From assembly GCA_946553025.1 (NCBI GenBank), contig CAMNRM010000006.1, positions 1-64,000 of the forward strand: a stretch of 64,000 bases of DNA. The letters run 5' to 3'. Positions within the stretch are counted from its first letter, which is position 1, and every line of letters starts with the position of its first letter. Source of the stretch: an uncultured Clostridium sp. Lineage in GTDB: Bacteria; Bacillota; Clostridia; Lachnospirales; Lachnospiraceae. Below, piece after piece: positions 27,334-38,256 of the stretch. The notes beneath the pieces were generated by a model. It was not told where the DNA came from. It did not search any database and saw nothing but the letters and a program-made list of their open reading frames with translations. Made by a program: the position numbers and the translations under genes.

Positions 27334-27846
27334 GTGGACAGTACAACCAGGAATATGATAAATTCGCTGACCGAAGATATTTTGCAGCTGCTTCATGTCC
27401 AGACTCCGGTCGAAAACATGGATGAACTTGTCTGTTCACTGGGGGGGAGGATTGAAGAGGATATAAAGTATTCGGATGGAGCGGTCCAAAAAGAGGGAGA
27501 TGCATTTATCATATGGGTATCACCGCTTCAGGATGAGAAAAGACGCAGGTTTACGATTGCTCATGAATTGGGACATTTATTTTTGCACATGGGTTATCTG
27601 ACGAATCATGAACTGTGGGAAAAGCAGGAGAATAAGATTTATCAAAGAATAGGAAATTCTGAAAAAGAATATCAGGCGAATGAATTTGCGGCTGCGTTTT
27701 TAATGCCTAAGAAGGAATATTTCAAAGTAATGAATGAAAATCTGGATGGAAATAAGGTAATGACAAGCAAGATAGCAGAGCATTTTCATGTGTCTGTAGA
27801 GGCTGCATCTAATCGGGGAAAATTTTTGGGATATTTAAAATGGTAG
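27334..27846 (+). CDS. ImmA/IrrE family metallopeptidase
   Basis: FTIAHELGHLFLHMGY (HExxH), EYQANEFAAAFLMP; GTG start with SD. Confidence 0.9.
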   Translation: MDSTTRNMINSLTEDILQLLHVQTPVENMDELVCSLGGRIEEDIKYSDGAVQKEGDAFIIWVSPLQDEKRRRFTIAHELGHLFLHMGYLTNHELWEKQENKIYQRIGNSEKEYQANEFAAAFLMPKKEYFKVMNENLDGNKVMTSKIAEHFHVSVEAASNRGKFLGYLKW

Positions 27847-29282
27847 ATAAGCGATTTACAAAAACACTTCAAAAGTACAGCGAGCAGATTCAAAATCTAA
27901 ATAAGGAAAAGGAAAAATTACAAAAACGACGCAGTGTTGAGATGTTTTTTTCTTTTGATATTGTAAATTCTTCTTCTTATAAAACTGTGAATTTTACCGG
28001 ATGGTCGCAGGTCATTATCACATTATTTGCCCGGATTCAGGAAAAGGTTGCCAAGAAGATTCCCAGTGCGGAAATGTGGAAAATCTTGGGCGATGAAGTG
28101 ATTTTTATTGTGCCGGTTCTTGAAAAACAGGATATTTTTATCTACATCAGCAATGTTTTTGAAATATTGAATCAAACGGTTTTTCAATTAAAGACAGGGA
28201 CATTTTTTGAGGATCAGGAGCTGCAGGGATTAGATCAGGATTTTTTGAAGATGCAAAATATTATTTCCCTGAAGGCGGCGGCCTGGATGGCGATTATAGG
28301 AGAAGAGATAAAGCCGGAAAAGTACGATAACCTGATGAAGCGTTTTAAATTGCAGGAAGGCTATGAAATTTTTGAGTTTTTGGGCAATGATATTGACACA
28401 GGTTTTAGGATTAAAGCTAATACGCAGGATAAAAGGCTGGTGATTAGTTATGAACTGGCATATATTTTGTCGAGAAATACGGATTCCCTAAAAAATATTT
28501 ACATTGTTACCTATAAACGTTTAAAGGGAATTTGGCAGAATCATTTATATCCGATAATCTGGTATCATGATGAAAAATTTGCGGAAGGAATATCTTTGGA
28601 AGACAGTTTTTATTATGATGAGCGGGAAAACAGCGAACTGGTCGATGAATATTTTAAAAACAGAAAAGATCCTGTGCTGCAAAGTAAAATGTATGAAGAT
28701 GTAGATTATGCATTGAATAAAATTTTAACGGATCGGAAGTTAGCGGATAAGTTTGAAAAGATTGATAAGGTGATTGAGGAATCGCAGAATGATATAAAGC
28801 ATTTATTAGATCCGAAGTTTTTGCTGCGGCTGCATTGCGTGGCGGTATGTTTTGATCAAAGCAAGAAAAAGATACTTATTATGAAAAGGTCAGAGCACAG
28901 AAAAAAGCTGGCAGGACTTTGGGAGTTTGGATGTGCCAAGGGAAGCCTGGAAAAATCATTGGTGGAACAGATTGAAGAAGATTATTGGCTGGATTTTGGA
29001 ATACGAATTAAGGTTATCTGTAATAAAAGCCGGAACGATGTGCAGCCTGTTCCACTGGCGATTTATGAAGTAGAGGGAGAACAGGGAAAAGACAAAGGAA
29101 TCATTACATTGGCAGAGATTATTGGAAATGTGGATATAGAAGGATTTCAGGGCGATAAACATTCTCAGATTCGCTGGATAGAAGAAGATGAAGCAAAGCA
29201 GTTTTTCGAGCCGACTGTAGATGACTTTCAAAATACGTTAAATATGGTGTTTTGCTGGCTGAAGGAAAATCCTATAGGCTGA
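27840..29282 (+). CDS. Class III nucleotide cyclase-like domain fused to a degenerate Nudix domain
   Basis: MFFSFDIVNSSSYK and WKILGDEVIFIV (two metal-Asp motifs), FLGNDIDTGFRIKANTQDKRLVIS; C-terminal WEFGCAKGSLEKSLVEQIEEDYWLDFGI aligns to a Nudix box without gaps. Confidence 0.7.
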   Translation: MVDKRFTKTLQKYSEQIQNLNKEKEKLQKRRSVEMFFSFDIVNSSSYKTVNFTGWSQVIITLFARIQEKVAKKIPSAEMWKILGDEVIFIVPVLEKQDIFIYISNVFEILNQTVFQLKTGTFFEDQELQGLDQDFLKMQNIISLKAAAWMAIIGEEIKPEKYDNLMKRFKLQEGYEIFEFLGNDIDTGFRIKANTQDKRLVISYELAYILSRNTDSLKNIYIVTYKRLKGIWQNHLYPIIWYHDEKFAEGISLEDSFYYDERENSELVDEYFKNRKDPVLQSKMYEDVDYALNKILTDRKLADKFEKIDKVIEESQNDIKHLLDPKFLLRLHCVAVCFDQSKKKILIMKRSEHRKKLAGLWEFGCAKGSLEKSLVEQIEEDYWLDFGIRIKVICNKSRNDVQPVPLAIYEVEGEQGKDKGIITLAEIIGNVDIEGFQGDKHSQIRWIEEDEAKQFFEPTVDDFQNTLNMVFCWLKENPIG

Positions 29283-31372: not shown

Positions 31373-31434
31373 TGGAATGTTGCCTGCATATTTTAAGAGG
31401 GTATTAAATATCTGACAGAAAAGGAGTTGAAGAT

Positions 31435-34400
31435 TTGTCTAAACTAGAAGTTATCGAAGAACTGCAACAAATGCTTCAAAGTATGAGAACCATAACTAAA
31501 AATTTAGATAATAGCATTTTATGCCTGAAGGAAGTACTTGATGCAGAGGTGTTTATTCCAACGGGGTTAATTAATGAAATTAGAGATTGCTTGACTCAGA
31601 TTAGCAAAAAGCAGATAGAGTTTAATGAAAAGTATCAGAAGTTAAATAATCATGATCCAACTACAAAATACGCAGTTCTTGAAAGTGAATTTGAGGAGAT
31701 ACACCGAATTTTAGAAGAAAAAAGTAAGCAAATTAGTGTGATCCATTTCTTCTTATCTCTACATTCGGAAGACGAAGTAACAGAACATGTTCTGCAGAAA
31801 CGGAAAGAGAGCTTAATTGGCCTAGATTTTGATAATATTGATACAAAGAAATTAGAGTCAGTTGCTGAACCATATGTATTATTACAGAAAGCATTTTTAG
31901 AAGAGGACATTAAGAAAAAATTTTCTTTTGAATATCGATTGGCCTCATATTTTGAGGAGGAAATTGTAACTGGTATTCACTTTTCGACATTGTCTTTCCG
32001 GGATGAAACGATAAGTTCATCATCAGGCATTTTAGATGAAAAGGAAACTATTGAACAGAACCAGCAAAAACTTTTTTCTGATACTGGAAAAAGTAAAAAC
32101 AAAGAAGTTGCAGTGAGTGAAGATGTAGAGAATGATTCACAGAAGTTGTCGGATGAGGAATCTTTGACAGATAAGGAATTAGAGGCTCTTTATACAGAAG
32201 AAAACTCTCATACTTTAGCCGTACAGGAAACTGAAAAATCAAAAAAAGGATTTGGCGCAAAAGAGTTTAAGAGTGACATTGCAAAGCAATATCAAGAAGA
32301 AAAAATAGCATGTCTTGTAGAAGTCGTAAGAAATTGTGGGTATTCAATCGAAGGAATTTCTGCAAAGAAAAATGCTGATATAAAGCTTTATGAGATTGCT
32401 ACTGAAAAACTTTTACAAGCTGGATATTTGAAAAAGTATATCATTAAGAATTTAGGTGAATTTTTCACTTTATCAATACGAGGTGAGAGTGCTTTTAAAA
32501 CAAAAGCATCATTATCCTTTATTAATCAGCATTGCAGAAAAAATATTTCATTGCAAGATATCGGAGAGCATATAAAAGATTCAGCTAATTCAGCTATTGT
32601 ACGTCTTATGGCGTTTAACAGTATCGTTAAGCAGCGCTCTATTTTACCCCATTATATTTTTTTAAATGCTAAAAATATAATGGGAACAGACTATTTCCTA
32701 ATTGGTTATCCTATGTTACGTAAGGATATGATTTGGCATATTGGAGTTGTAAGTGAAAATCCAAAAAAATTTTATGAATTAAGAGAACGGTTAAATGAAG
32801 TTATTAGCGAGAATGATGTCTTAATTGTATATGGATTGACATTAGAAAATGCGAAGTCGGTAAAAAATTGGCTGGTCAGTGAACTCAATATTGAGAGCAG
32901 TATTGTTGGAATTACTGCTTTATCTGAGAAGGCAGTAGTTGATGCAGATACAAAAGAAGTATTAGTGTTGGATGATTTAGAGGAGGAATACGCGGAATCT
33001 TCTGTAAAAACGGTAAATGAAGAACGGGAAAGTGCGAATACAAAGGAGTTTTCATTTGAGTCAGAGGAAGTTGATGAAGATCTGATCAAGTCAATTGATA
33101 TTGAAAAAAATCAAGTAAATGATATAGAAGAGCCAGATATAGGACAGAATTTTGAAAAGGATGATAGCGAGAATACATTTTCTGCAACCGATGAACTTGC
33201 AGCTACTGTGGAAATCGAAAATCATAGATTGCCAGAAAATGATACCGAACTCGAGGAAACTTCTGAAAATGATATTCAACAGGCAGCTATATTATTATCA
33301 GATGAAGAAAAAGAAGCATATATTGAACAGTATTATAACTTTATTATTTCAGGAAAAACGTATGCTGCATCAGCTTATTTAAAGGTATTAACACGAAGAT
33401 ATTTTTGTTTTGAGCCTCATTATCGACAGTTAGCCTATGCCATAAATGATCCAATGGAAGGATGTACATATAGCTCTGATACAATTTTTAATGTATATTA
33501 TGGGGAATTTGCACCGATATCGGATTATTATATTGTAGCGGCGGCAATACGTAATTTCTTTTTTGATCAGTATAGTTATGATTATTCTATTCAGCAGGTT
33601 TATGCAATGTTAAGCGGAAATCGGTTATTCGCAAATAATCCATCACTTGAAAAAGTCGTTTATGATTTGATGACATTTAAAAAGGAACGACATATTGGAA
33701 TGGATCGTTATGCGGATTATAGAGAGAAGGAAAGAAATTCTCTTGAAAAGCGTTTGCTGGAAATCCGTTGTGAAGCAAAAGGATATTATGATAATTACGG
33801 AAATGGTAATCTGAAAGAAAATGCTTCACACAAGAGATTTATTGAAACTACTAAGCTTATTTTAGGTGCTGGAAGCGATTTATGTGAATATTTAAAAATT
33901 GTTGCTGATAATGATGAAGATATGCTGGACATGCTGACAGAATTTTTAACCAGTACTTATGTAAAAGATCAGGCTGTTATTAGTGAAGAAAATATTGATC
34001 CTGCGAAGATTAACAAGTCGTTAGATTATTTTTGGGACCGTGCTGGTCAGAATATGAGATTGGTGAAAAAAACATCTGATCTGATGAGCAGTCTTAGAAT
34101 GAATCTTTATAAGAAAGTTTATAAAGTTGTATCTGTACTTTGCAATTATGTTTCTGCTATGAAGTATTCTATGGAAAATACGGATGATGAATCGTGGCAT
34201 GTATACAAAAAAATCAGGACACCTTTATTGAATTCTTTAAAGGAATCTTTAGATGAAGTTTCACAAATTGATTCCAATTCATTGAATGAAAAGGCAGGTA
34301 GAGTTGTATTGCTGCAGACACTACATGAAGTGGAATTACGGTTGTCAGGTGATTATCAGGAGGGTAATTACAAATATTATTATATTGATTTCTTAAAGAA

Positions 34401-36867
34401 TGATAAGGTTTTACTGGATGAGGACTATTTGCCAATTTTGGATGAAGTTCCAGAAATTGAAGAGTTTTCTATTTTGTCAAGAATTCAGTTGCATTGCGAA
34501 CAGGATGAAATAGAATTTCCTGAAAGATTACAGAATATCTTTTCTGGTGGTGATGATTATGGAAGTGCGGCATTAATTCTTAAATATTTGCAGCACGAGG
34601 GAATTGTTTTATCGCCTGAAGAATCAAAAAAATATAATGTAGAAAAAGCTATCGTATATTCTTTAAGAGATCTGGAAAATAAGCGAAAAGGATTCATCGA
34701 GGATATTGAATTGGCTCAAAGCTATGGACAGGTTGATAATACTGTTGAGAATAGTAAAGAATTAATTCTTCAAATAATAGAGTCTTGGTATATCTGGGCT
34801 GTGGAAACAAAAAACTACGGATTCTTTGTTAAAATCCTGGAAGAGTTTAGAAAGAAAATCAAGAAGGATGCACAGAGCAGAGCTCAGGACTTACAGAAGA
34901 GTTTAGATGTATATCTTAATGAAAATAGTTCATGGGCAGAAGATGAATTAGTCAACAAAGCTGTAATTCAGATACAGGATCGTATTGAACAACAAAATTA
35001 TGCAGCTGCTGAAGATTTGTTAAATAGAGTTGTTACAAATGATCTTGAACTTGAGAATTCGGTTGAACAAGAAGATTATTTGGCTTGCTTCCTTGATGAA
35101 TATGATGTTCATTATAGAAAGACTGCAAAACCTGGGGCAACACTCAAATCATTAGTAAATACATCTAAGAACAATAAAGATATCAGAGGCGGTAATAGAT
35201 TATTAGAAAGTTGGCTTCGAGGTGCAGGGGTTAGTGAAACTACATTAAAAACGCTGTTAAGCGTACTTGGTTTTAATGTGGATTCTGTACATGTTGAAGA
35301 ACCAATTCAAGGAAAAATTGAGAATTATACGATACTTTTAAAACGACCTCAAAATGGAAGAAAGAGTAATTATAAACATCCGATCTCCGCATTCGGATCA
35401 GAAGCAGAAATAAAAGGTTTTAGAGTTATTTGCGTTTTCGGAAAGGCAGATGCAACAAGATTGATTGACATTTTTAAGGAAGTTGGTAATGCCAAAAATA
35501 CGCTTGTATTACTTGATTACGCATTGTCTTTAGCGGATCGAAGAACTTTAGCTAGAAAAACTAAGACGGATATGAGTGGAAAAGTATTCGCTGTAATTGA
35601 TAGAGTTGTTCTTTTATATCTGGCTAAACATTATAATGAAACAGCGATAAGTAGAATGCTTATGTCTATTGTGATACCTTTTGCGGCATATCAGCCGTAT
35701 GTTGAAAAATCAGCAGACGTTATGCCACAAGAAATCTTTATCGGCCGCAAATACGAACTCGAAAAGATTGAGTCCCCTACTGGTGTCAATATTGTATATG
35801 GTGGTCGTCAGTTGGGAAAATCTGCATTACTTAGAATGGCTAAAAAAGATATTGATCAGAATGAAAATGGTGATAGAGCAATTCTTGTTGATATCAAGAA
35901 AATTGATTATAAGGCTGCTGCAAAAAAAATCTCAGCAGCATTGTATGATGAAAAGATATTGGATAAAGAACATATTACAGATGATTGGACCGAACTTGCC
36001 AGAGATATAAAAAATCGACTGCGCAGTAAGATAAATCCTATTCCATATCTTTTGCTGTTAATGGATGAAGCTGATACTTTTATTGAAAGTTGTGAAGGCA
36101 TAGGTTATCAACCATTTGATGCGCTTAAGGACATTCAGAGTATTGGCTCCGGAAGATTTAAATTTGTTGTCGCTGGTTTGAGAAATATTGTGCGATTTAA
36201 GAGAGAGGCTGCATTAGGAAATAACAGTGTTCTTACGCATTTGAAATCATTAACAGTAACTCCTTTTAAGGCAATGGAAGCAAGAGAGTTGCTGGAAGTA
36301 CCATTATCATATTTGGGATTTAGATTTCCTAAGGATAACGAAACAGATGTTCTGGTTTCAACCATTTTTGGAACAACTAATTATTTCCCGGGATTATTAC
36401 AGTTATATTGTGCAAAGCTTATTGAGGCAATGCGTCGGGACTATGCAGGATATTCAGAAAGCGAAACACCGCCTTATATTGTAAAGAAGGATCACATTAA
36501 GAAAGTCCTTGCAGAACAGTCATTGCAGCAGGATATTCGTGAAAAATTCTTTATTACATTAAAAGAAGGTGAAGATGATTATTATTATATTATTGCTTTG
36601 CTTGTGGCTTACCACTATCATGAAAATAAATCTCAAAATGGCTCTAGCGTTGTAGAACTTCTGAATATGTCTAATACATTTTCTATTGGAAAGATTGCAG
36701 CGCTCAATTTAGGAAAGTTGGAAGCCCTAATGGAAGAAATGTGTGAATTAAATGTTCTGCAGCATACCGGAGATGGACGCTATAGATTTACAAGACATAG
36801 TTTTTGCCAGATGATGGGAACGGTCCAACAGATTGACGATGAACTTATGAACTATATGGAGGATTAG
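31435..36867 (+). CDS. Giant (1810-aa) protein with C-terminal STAND-like AAA ATPase
   Basis: IFIGRKYELEKIESPTGVNIVYGGRQLGKSALL (Walker A about 35800-35823), YLLLLMDEADTFI Walker B; acidic/coiled N-terminal and helical-repeat middle. TTG start. Confidence 0.8.
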   Translation: MSKLEVIEELQQMLQSMRTITKNLDNSILCLKEVLDAEVFIPTGLINEIRDCLTQISKKQIEFNEKYQKLNNHDPTTKYAVLESEFEEIHRILEEKSKQISVIHFFLSLHSEDEVTEHVLQKRKESLIGLDFDNIDTKKLESVAEPYVLLQKAFLEEDIKKKFSFEYRLASYFEEEIVTGIHFSTLSFRDETISSSSGILDEKETIEQNQQKLFSDTGKSKNKEVAVSEDVENDSQKLSDEESLTDKELEALYTEENSHTLAVQETEKSKKGFGAKEFKSDIAKQYQEEKIACLVEVVRNCGYSIEGISAKKNADIKLYEIATEKLLQAGYLKKYIIKNLGEFFTLSIRGESAFKTKASLSFINQHCRKNISLQDIGEHIKDSANSAIVRLMAFNSIVKQRSILPHYIFLNAKNIMGTDYFLIGYPMLRKDMIWHIGVVSENPKKFYELRERLNEVISENDVLIVYGLTLENAKSVKNWLVSELNIESSIVGITALSEKAVVDADTKEVLVLDDLEEEYAESSVKTVNEERESANTKEFSFESEEVDEDLIKSIDIEKNQVNDIEEPDIGQNFEKDDSENTFSATDELAATVEIENHRLPENDTELEETSENDIQQAAILLSDEEKEAYIEQYYNFIISGKTYAASAYLKVLTRRYFCFEPHYRQLAYAINDPMEGCTYSSDTIFNVYYGEFAPISDYYIVAAAIRNFFFDQYSYDYSIQQVYAMLSGNRLFANNPSLEKVVYDLMTFKKERHIGMDRYADYREKERNSLEKRLLEIRCEAKGYYDNYGNGNLKENASHKRFIETTKLILGAGSDLCEYLKIVADNDEDMLDMLTEFLTSTYVKDQAVISEENIDPAKINKSLDYFWDRAGQNMRLVKKTSDLMSSLRMNLYKKVYKVVSVLCNYVSAMKYSMENTDDESWHVYKKIRTPLLNSLKESLDEVSQIDSNSLNEKAGRVVLLQTLHEVELRLSGDYQEGNYKYYYIDFLKNDKVLLDEDYLPILDEVPEIEEFSILSRIQLHCEQDEIEFPERLQNIFSGGDDYGSAALILKYLQHEGIVLSPEESKKYNVEKAIVYSLRDLENKRKGFIEDIELAQSYGQVDNTVENSKELILQIIESWYIWAVETKNYGFFVKILEEFRKKIKKDAQSRAQDLQKSLDVYLNENSSWAEDELVNKAVIQIQDRIEQQNYAAAEDLLNRVVTNDLELENSVEQEDYLACFLDEYDVHYRKTAKPGATLKSLVNTSKNNKDIRGGNRLLESWLRGAGVSETTLKTLLSVLGFNVDSVHVEEPIQGKIENYTILLKRPQNGRKSNYKHPISAFGSEAEIKGFRVICVFGKADATRLIDIFKEVGNAKNTLVLLDYALSLADRRTLARKTKTDMSGKVFAVIDRVVLLYLAKHYNETAISRMLMSIVIPFAAYQPYVEKSADVMPQEIFIGRKYELEKIESPTGVNIVYGGRQLGKSALLRMAKKDIDQNENGDRAILVDIKKIDYKAAAKKISAALYDEKILDKEHITDDWTELARDIKNRLRSKINPIPYLLLLMDEADTFIESCEGIGYQPFDALKDIQSIGSGRFKFVVAGLRNIVRFKREAALGNNSVLTHLKSLTVTPFKAMEARELLEVPLSYLGFRFPKDNETDVLVSTIFGTTNYFPGLLQLYCAKLIEAMRRDYAGYSESETPPYIVKKDHIKKVLAEQSLQQDIREKFFITLKEGEDDYYYIIALLVAYHYHENKSQNGSSVVELLNMSNTFSIGKIAALNLGKLEALMEEMCELNVLQHTGDGRYRFTRHSFCQMMGTVQQIDDELMNYMED

Positions 36868-36869
36868 TG

Positions 36870-37952
36870 ATGGATCATGTATGGTGGAATCACATCATTA
36901 AAGCCCATTCATTTCTTGAAGAAATTGTATCAGAAACTGTTAAGGGGGGCAGTATTTTGCTCTCCTTACCTGATACTATTCCATGGAGAAATACACTGAT
37001 AGATATTGTTAGTGAACGGCTTCGAGTAGAAAACTCAAAGAATAAGTTGGAAGTAATTGAATGTCCCGATATAGATCCAGGGGAATATTTACTTGAACAA
37101 TATTGTAAAAAAGAAATACGTGCAACATACCGTTATGGTGTTAGCTATGCAAAGTTTCTTGGTCTGTGTCAGGAAACTGTTTTGAATGATAGGTACCTTT
37201 GGGTATCTAATATATCTTCGGAAAAAATTGAAAAATGGATGGATTTTGTATCAGAATATCAAAAAAATGTAAAGGATAAAACCCCGGGAATATTTATATT
37301 AGAAGTTCATGATGATAATTTGATGAAAAAGAGTAAAAAAGGTATTAAGAGCCTAGTATTTAATCAAAGTATCGGTGCATATGATAAATATGCATTTTGT
37401 GCATTAGCGGCTTCGCAAACAACATGCAAAGAGTACTTACGTCCATTTTTAGCAGAAACAGTATCATCAATTTGTGGAGATGATGTTGAGTTATGTGCAG
37501 CATGTGTTTCTTGCGGAAAAGAATTTTTAGAATCTCCAATTGTTGTAATTAATAGAATAATTCAGAATAATTATCGAAGCAGTGGAGAAAAATATACTTT
37601 TAATAAAAATTTTGATAATATTGAAGGAGCGATATGGGAAAGTCAATTAAAGTATATTTTTCCTCTCATAGAGGATTATAGGAAATATTTTATTAGCAGA
37701 TATTCTAGCGCAATAAAAAATGTACTTCCGCTTACTACTAGCTATGGCGAAAAAGTAACAAGTCCCGAAGATGTGGAACTAGGTACTTTGATTTACATGG
37801 TTGGCAAAGGAAACCTAAATATCTCTTCTAGAGAATATTCAGAATTAGAACGCTATAGGAAGGCTAGAAATAAGCTGGCTCATATGAACTTGTTGGATAT
37901 TGATGAACTGGATATTATTCTAAGAACAGGTAAGCACACCTTATATAAATGA
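36870..37952 (+). CDS. Partner protein with C-terminal HEPN-like RNxxxH motif
   Basis: Starts at the overlapping stop of the giant gene (TAGTGATG); RYRKARNKLAHMNLLDIDELDIIL near C-terminus (RNKLAH at 37866-37883). Confidence 0.7.
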   Translation: MDHVWWNHIIKAHSFLEEIVSETVKGGSILLSLPDTIPWRNTLIDIVSERLRVENSKNKLEVIECPDIDPGEYLLEQYCKKEIRATYRYGVSYAKFLGLCQETVLNDRYLWVSNISSEKIEKWMDFVSEYQKNVKDKTPGIFILEVHDDNLMKKSKKGIKSLVFNQSIGAYDKYAFCALAASQTTCKEYLRPFLAETVSSICGDDVELCAACVSCGKEFLESPIVVINRIIQNNYRSSGEKYTFNKNFDNIEGAIWESQLKYIFPLIEDYRKYFISRYSSAIKNVLPLTTSYGEKVTSPEDVELGTLIYMVGKGNLNISSREYSELERYRKARNKLAHMNLLDIDELDIILRTGKHTLYK

Positions 37953-38028: not shown

Positions 38029-38256
38029 ATGGAAACAACTTTTGATGGTGATACAGTTTGGATATTCATTGACCAAGTGGCGGAACTGTTTCAGCGAGAT
38101 AGAAGTGTCATCGGTAAGCATATAAGAAATATTTTCAAAGAAGGCGAATTGCAGAAAGAATCAGTGTGGGCAAAATTTACCTACACTGTCATTGACGGAA
38201 AAGTATATGATGTGGATTCGATTAAAATCTTGGAGCAGAGGACTGAGAATAAATAA
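38029..38256 (+). pseudogene. N-terminal fragment of a RhuM-family virulence protein
   Basis: TVWIFIDQVAELFQRDRSVIGKHIRNIFKEGELQKESVWAKF; ends soon after, far shorter than RhuM proteins. Confidence 0.7.

Follow-up and report, generated by a model that had tools for sequence, protein, structure and literature searches.

A giant STAND ATPase and an inactive STAND-HEPN protein encoded as an obligate gene pair: a candidate two-gene immune module in an uncultured Clostridium

What might a bacterium gain from a protein of 1,810 amino acids with recognisable ATPase motifs only at its C-terminal end, whose gene is followed directly by that of a small protein with a ribonuclease-like motif? The question is raised by a locus within the window, by which we mean the whole stretch of 64,000 nucleotides analysed here, from an uncultured Clostridium of the Lachnospiraceae. 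A sequence-only reading had proposed a STAND-like ATPase coupled to a HEPN-type ribonuclease, as a candidate for abortive infection. Both genes proved to be real and, like all of their features given below, lie on the + strand. The giant gene (31435..36867, 1810 aa, by its open reading frame and its relatives) starts with TTG, 8 nt after the Shine-Dalgarno sequence AAGGAG (31421..31426). The RNKLAH-bearing partner gene (36870..37952) follows directly, with 360 aa when read from ATG and 361 aa when read from GTG at 36867. The ATG at 36870 is most likely the start, because a Shine-Dalgarno sequence, GGAGG (36858..36862), lies within the last codons of the giant gene and because homologs begin with M-x-x-x-W-W. 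The two genes are therefore separated by 2 nt (TAG-TG-ATG), and the overlap with a 361-aa partner claimed earlier does not hold in the window. It does hold for most relatives: when starts were assigned mechanically in 89 complete pairs, 58 overlapped, 26 had a gap of 0 to 15 nt and 5 a larger gap. Both genes are AT-rich, as had been claimed for the giant, with a GC content of 0.337 for the giant and 0.327 for the partner, whereas the genes on either side have 0.446 and 0.465.

In the giant protein, Walker A (GGRQLGKS, aa 1456-1463, 35800..35823) and Walker B (LLLLMDEAD, aa 1539-1547, 36049..36075) occur once each, at the C-terminal end where they had first been noticed. Walker A takes this form in 90/90 giants, and the Walker B pattern is found in 87 of the 90. 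These motifs lie within an active AAA+ ATPase core of the STAND/ORC-Cdc6 type (aa 1430-1690, 35722..36504), recognised by its alignment invariants and by Foldseek matches to the archaeal Walker-type ATPase 2qen (E=1.3e-5) and to archaeal ORC2/Cdc6 proteins, 1w5t among them. The giant thus combines both Walker motifs with the fold of this clade, and the description of it as STAND-like is supported. An invariant arginine past the sensor-1 strand, R1587 (36193..36195), is a candidate arginine finger. The last part of the chain (aa 1700-1810, 36532..36864) is probably winged-helix-like, judging from the secondary structure of the model, and in more distant giants the chain runs about 300 residues past this region. 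Before the P-loop, the alignment and the AlphaFold model delimit an alpha/beta domain (about aa 1282-1400, 35278..35634) with conserved FGS, RR and D, which matched no Pfam family.

The remainder of the giant consists of a long helical middle of about 600 residues (aa 641-1270, 33355..35244; mean pLDDT 85.9 in an AlphaFold model that covers aa 625-1810) and of a hypervariable N-terminal region with acidic patches (aa 1-640, 31435..33354), a putative sensor. Identity to the giant of Eubacterium ramulus (L039) falls from 85% in the ATPase to 73% in the middle and 42% in the N-terminus, and mean column identity over the first 640 residues is 13% among 44 relatives. Such a drop in conservation from the ATPase towards the N-terminus is expected if the latter is a sensor. 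The N-terminus had been described as very long, acidic and helical. The helices are found in the model of aa 641-1270 and the acidity is confined to patches: D and E make up 31% of aa 526-640, and aa 281-525 are near neutral. Pfam returned only scattered TPR (3/44) and coiled-coil matches for 44 N-terminal regions, and a Cep57 match was dismissed as coiled-coil noise. Pfam, NCBIfam and PADLOC assigned neither the giant nor the partner to a family, and annotation pipelines relying on them therefore miss the pair. In particular, neither a housekeeping family nor a named defence family in these collections matched the giant, in agreement with the earlier view of it as novel. A weak PADLOC match to mad8 (E=0.021) was rejected as mere P-loop resemblance, and a sequence search of the PDB gave no match for the giant, the partner or the HEPN profile.

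The partner has a feature that the sequence-only reading had missed. In an AlphaFold model built with 79 sequences (pLDDT 96), its first 235 residues (36870..37574) form an alpha/beta domain, which we read as a STAND/ORC-like AAA+ fold without Walker motifs, that is, as an inactive STAND-type fold occupying the N-terminal two thirds of the chain. The best PDB matches of the whole chain in Foldseek were plant NRC NB-ARC proteins, Apaf-1 and ORC/Cdc6 (best E 5e-6, with a low TM of about 0.36), and a search against a viral library gave the AAA+ result again. No P-loop or Walker A was found across the partner family, apart from one chance pattern match that falls in a helix. The STAND part of the partner has no detectable sequence similarity to that of the giant, and a conserved basic residue or invariant arginine, sought in aa 1-235, was not found, a result that depends on the alignment.

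Since Foldseek aligns the entire partner chain to STAND/ORC proteins, its C-terminal helices could in principle be the lid and winged helix of the same fold, with the ribonuclease-like motif a coincidence, and no HEPN structure was among the 50 matches listed for the partner. We regard this as extremely improbable in view of the profile evidence. HEPN_Swt1 was the commonest Pfam family among 39 partner members (12/39, best E=0.0033), and RiboL-PSP-HEPN, HepT, pEK499_p136, Abi_2 and DUF4145 were also listed, although the HEPN domain of the window's own partner, submitted alone, had no HEPN match in Pfam. Alignment by hhalign to Swt1-type HEPN domains of other genomes reached 93% (E=4e-8) across the full domain, and neither shuffled nor helical controls exceeded 0.5%; masking the motif lowered the 93% to about 18% and left the register unchanged. 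Together with the place of the motif in the AlphaFold model, these results identify the C-terminal domain of the partner (aa 240-360, 37587..37949) as a Swt1-like HEPN domain, and the HEPN signature reported earlier is borne out.

The catalytic motif R333-N-K-L-A-H338 (37866..37883) lies near the C-terminus, as had been stated, and the protein does not end in it: about 20 of the 360 residues still follow. HEPN motifs are characterised by Rx4-6H with a polar residue after the arginine, and by a position at the end of a helix and the start of the next loop, with the histidine just past the third helix (PMC3710099). In the partner model, a helix spans residues 320-337, H338 is in a loop and another helix spans 344-357, an arrangement derived from secondary structure alone (pLDDT 96) in which H338 falls just past the third helix, in agreement with that review. 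The domain also has an invariant acidic/basic pair in the partner alignment, E268...R271 (37671..37682), resembling the Ex3[KR] element of the same review (PMC3710099). All 89 complete partners have RNxLxH and hence the Rx4-6H pattern with its polar residue. This invariance bears on whether the domain may be a non-catalytic module for RNA binding or dimerisation, as some HEPN families, eukaryotic Swt1 among them, no longer have the motif and are regarded as RNA binders (PMC3710099). Non-catalytic members usually lose the very R, N and H that are invariant in 89/89 partners here, and we consider such a role very unlikely.

How tightly are the two genes associated? We scanned the alignment of the giant's ATPase against one genome per species, which returned at least 479 relatives, and kept 80 loci. 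The partner lies immediately downstream of the giant in all 78 loci with room for it; the remaining two run into a contig end within 142-211 nt. The coupling proposed from the window is thus supported by these loci, and giant and partner form an obligate pair. A chance motif or a chance pairing is unlikely because the motif is invariant in all complete partners and linkage is complete. The two proteins have also diverged together, as distances between partners correlate with those between giant ATPases (Mantel r=0.885, 0/999 permutations as high).

The anatomy of the two proteins suggests a sensor-switch, the giant, and an effector arm, the partner. We consider it probable that they constitute a mobile two-gene immune module, in which the giant STAND sensor-switch activates a HEPN RNase via the inactive STAND partner. 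The giant would act as an ATPase switch of the STAND class, and its rapidly evolving N-terminus would recognise a product of the invader. Binding of this product would free the switch and ATP would drive assembly, which the partner would enter through its own STAND fold, predicted to be unable to bind ATP. Two HEPN domains brought together in this way would turn on a metal-independent RNase, and through the cutting of host RNA, phage RNA or both the infected cell could become dormant or die. A STAND ATPase likewise serves as sensor-switch in Avs and in other proteins of STAND-based defence; Avs, however, has its effector N-terminal in one chain with the ATPase, whereas here the effector is a separate subunit. 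Against the immune reading stand the low TM of the partner (about 0.36) and the lack of HEPN structures among its 50 listed matches, the motif-masked profile match of about 18%, the invariant arginine that was sought and not found in the partner's STAND part, and nearest neighbours that are mostly housekeeping genes (see below).

The same components could follow the logic of a toxin-antitoxin pair, in which the giant is mainly an ATP-dependent inhibitor and any loss, degradation or blockage of it sets the RNase free, with a role in maintenance or stress and phage defence as a secondary effect. The order of the genes, regulator first and RNase second, their tight translational spacing and their strict pairing all fit this arrangement, and HEPN domains are frequent in toxin-antitoxin pairs (PMC3710099). 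We nevertheless judge it unlikely, as a protein of 1,800 residues that has both an ATPase and a hypervariable N-terminus is far larger than an antitoxin needs to be, and it is this N-terminus that diverges fastest.

Further evidence comes from the distribution of the pair, which is sporadic. The partner was found in 7 of 299 genomes of the family, with the giant directly upstream in all six besides that of the window, and in 1 of 11 genomes of the genus. When the flanks were compared within the genus, the upstream ArsC gene was present in 11/11 genomes, and the downstream flank matched in three of the ten others, at different places. Further copies of the pair were found in distant Bacillota and on Salinibacter, Thiodictyon and Methylocystis plasmids, and one IMG/VR contig carries it beside phage tail genes; annotated phage records contained no match to the giant. 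In the Methylocystis record (L011:11340-12413) the partner reading frame is only partly annotated, with a CDS from 11820, and the pair is hidden as a result.

The survey for defence neighbourhoods proposed earlier gave a mixed answer. The 136 nearest neighbours of the pair are mostly housekeeping genes, and only a minority match MADS, Cas10, AriA or Vsr models. The next layer of 124 genes includes type III and I-G CRISPR, Druantia DruE and more MADS and AriA matches. Overall, some relatives adjoin CRISPR of types I-G, II and III, MADS, Druantia and PARIS-type genes. By inspection, the Eubacterium ramulus locus adjoins an apparent Cas9 and Cas1, and directly behind the pair on the Ti plasmid of an Agrobacterium come CBASS-type genes (L145:11045-15290) for MBL-fold, ThiF/E2-like and patatin proteins. 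A recurrent third gene beside the pair was sought in these loci and none was found. We infer a defence role from the sporadic distribution and from those relatives that lie beside known defence genes.

The sequence-only reading had not recognised the arrangement as a named system. This stands as far as PADLOC, NCBIfam and Pfam are concerned, but the general design was predicted in 2021. According to the passages on nSTAND2 in Kaur et al. (eLife 2021; PMC8195603, Fig. 6C), this predicted two-gene counter-invader system is a mobile operon for two STAND proteins, one of them eroded, with GT4 or HEPN as its most frequent fusion domains. The pair shares with it the mobile two-gene operon, the STAND modules in both products and the erosion and HEPN fusion of one of them. 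It differs in that those passages give both proteins an arginine finger (PMC8195603), whereas here the candidate R1587 is in the giant and none is conserved in the STAND part of the partner. They also report GT4 partners (PMC8195603), none of which was seen here, several distant plasmid loci included, and they make no mention of a 1400-aa variable N-terminal region such as that of the giant (PMC8195603). Our search of the open literature on nSTAND2 found no further relevant paper. We therefore call the pair a variant of the predicted nSTAND2-type design, likened by the design outlined in those passages and not by sequence.

Two other systems are comparable. In BREX, BrxB/iSTAND likewise places a Walker-less STAND fold beside an active STAND/ORC ATPase (PMC12839542), but the inactive STAND of the present pair carries a HEPN nuclease domain, and PglZ, BrxC, BrxX and other BREX core genes were not among the nearest neighbours listed. 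DUF499 (HmaC-type) ATPases of BREX-related Type-1 defence loci combine a STAND/ORC ATPase with an N-terminal Swt1-like HEPN domain (PMC3710099, PMC12839542). There, HEPN and active ATPase share one protein with a methylase and a helicase alongside, whereas here HEPN is on a separate inactive STAND protein and neither methylase nor helicase is recurrent.

More distant relatives of the giant have other types of partner. On three alphaproteobacterial plasmids, the partner combines inactive STAND, HEPN and a C-terminal AAA_33 (polynucleotide-kinase-like) domain (L144:9250-10869, L145:9277-10866 and L010:11556-13133). The motif of the L010 partner reads RRGMAH, and the L144 and L010 giants are longer than 3000 aa and bear the annotation of RNaseH domain proteins. 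A passage in PMC10942766 describes cooperation between HEPN and polynucleotide kinase in Las1-Grc3 RNA processing. This parallel (PMC10942766, same passage) is among the points in favour of the immune reading, but both it and the predominance of housekeeping neighbours would also suit a regulated nuclease outside immunity, acting in tRNA or mRNA processing or in a stress response. We rate this explanation as quite improbable, given the sporadic presence of the pair (7/299 in the family, 1/11 in the genus), its occurrence on plasmids and one phage-type contig, and the lack of recurrent operon mates.

In Burkholderia and Cupriavidus, the relative of the giant is followed by a protein of 922-933 aa (L141:9415-12183 and L143:9532-12333). 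These proteins look mutually related by eye, and that of Burkholderia (L141) has a DISARM DrmE_C domain; the ATPase module of the giant may thus also occur in DISARM-type loci. At L143, a helicase-like protein comes after the protein of this class. In Euzebya (L142:9424-12114), the relative of the giant precedes a protein of 896 aa that matches TPR weakly and represents a different partner type; no HEPN motif was seen in it. In Brasilonema (L012:4777-15036) there is no HEPN partner, and the next gene encodes a PLD-SNF2 helicase.

A broader proposal, which we put forward tentatively and hold to be somewhat doubtful, is that these loci form a hitherto undescribed immune family apart from nSTAND2. 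Its inactive STAND would dock a HEPN RNase on an ATP-driven STAND assembly, and its giant ATPase would be a common sensor platform, joined to HEPN partners in most lineages, to HEPN-kinase partners in alphaproteobacteria and to DISARM-type or helicase partners elsewhere. If the immune reading of the pair is true, it would provide a concrete example of a compact and widespread immune switch that joins an active STAND subunit to an inactive one, the spread being that of the at least 479 ATPase relatives at one genome per species, and a published prediction could be put to a direct test on just two genes and a handful of point mutants.

Two smaller features flank the pair in the window. Directly 3' of the partner, a remnant-like reading frame of 75 codons (38029-38256) was considered as a RhuM-type fragment and set aside when Pfam did not confirm it. 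About 2 kb upstream of the giant, positions 27334-29282 hold two AT-rich genes with a GC content of 0.374. The first encodes an ImmA/IrrE-type metallopeptidase (PADLOC capP, E=9e-28) and the second a protein of 480 aa with an N-terminus that looks nucleotide-cyclase-like by eye and a weak C-terminal NUDIX match (PADLOC PDC-S07, E=5e-6). These two genes are possibly a second conflict module.
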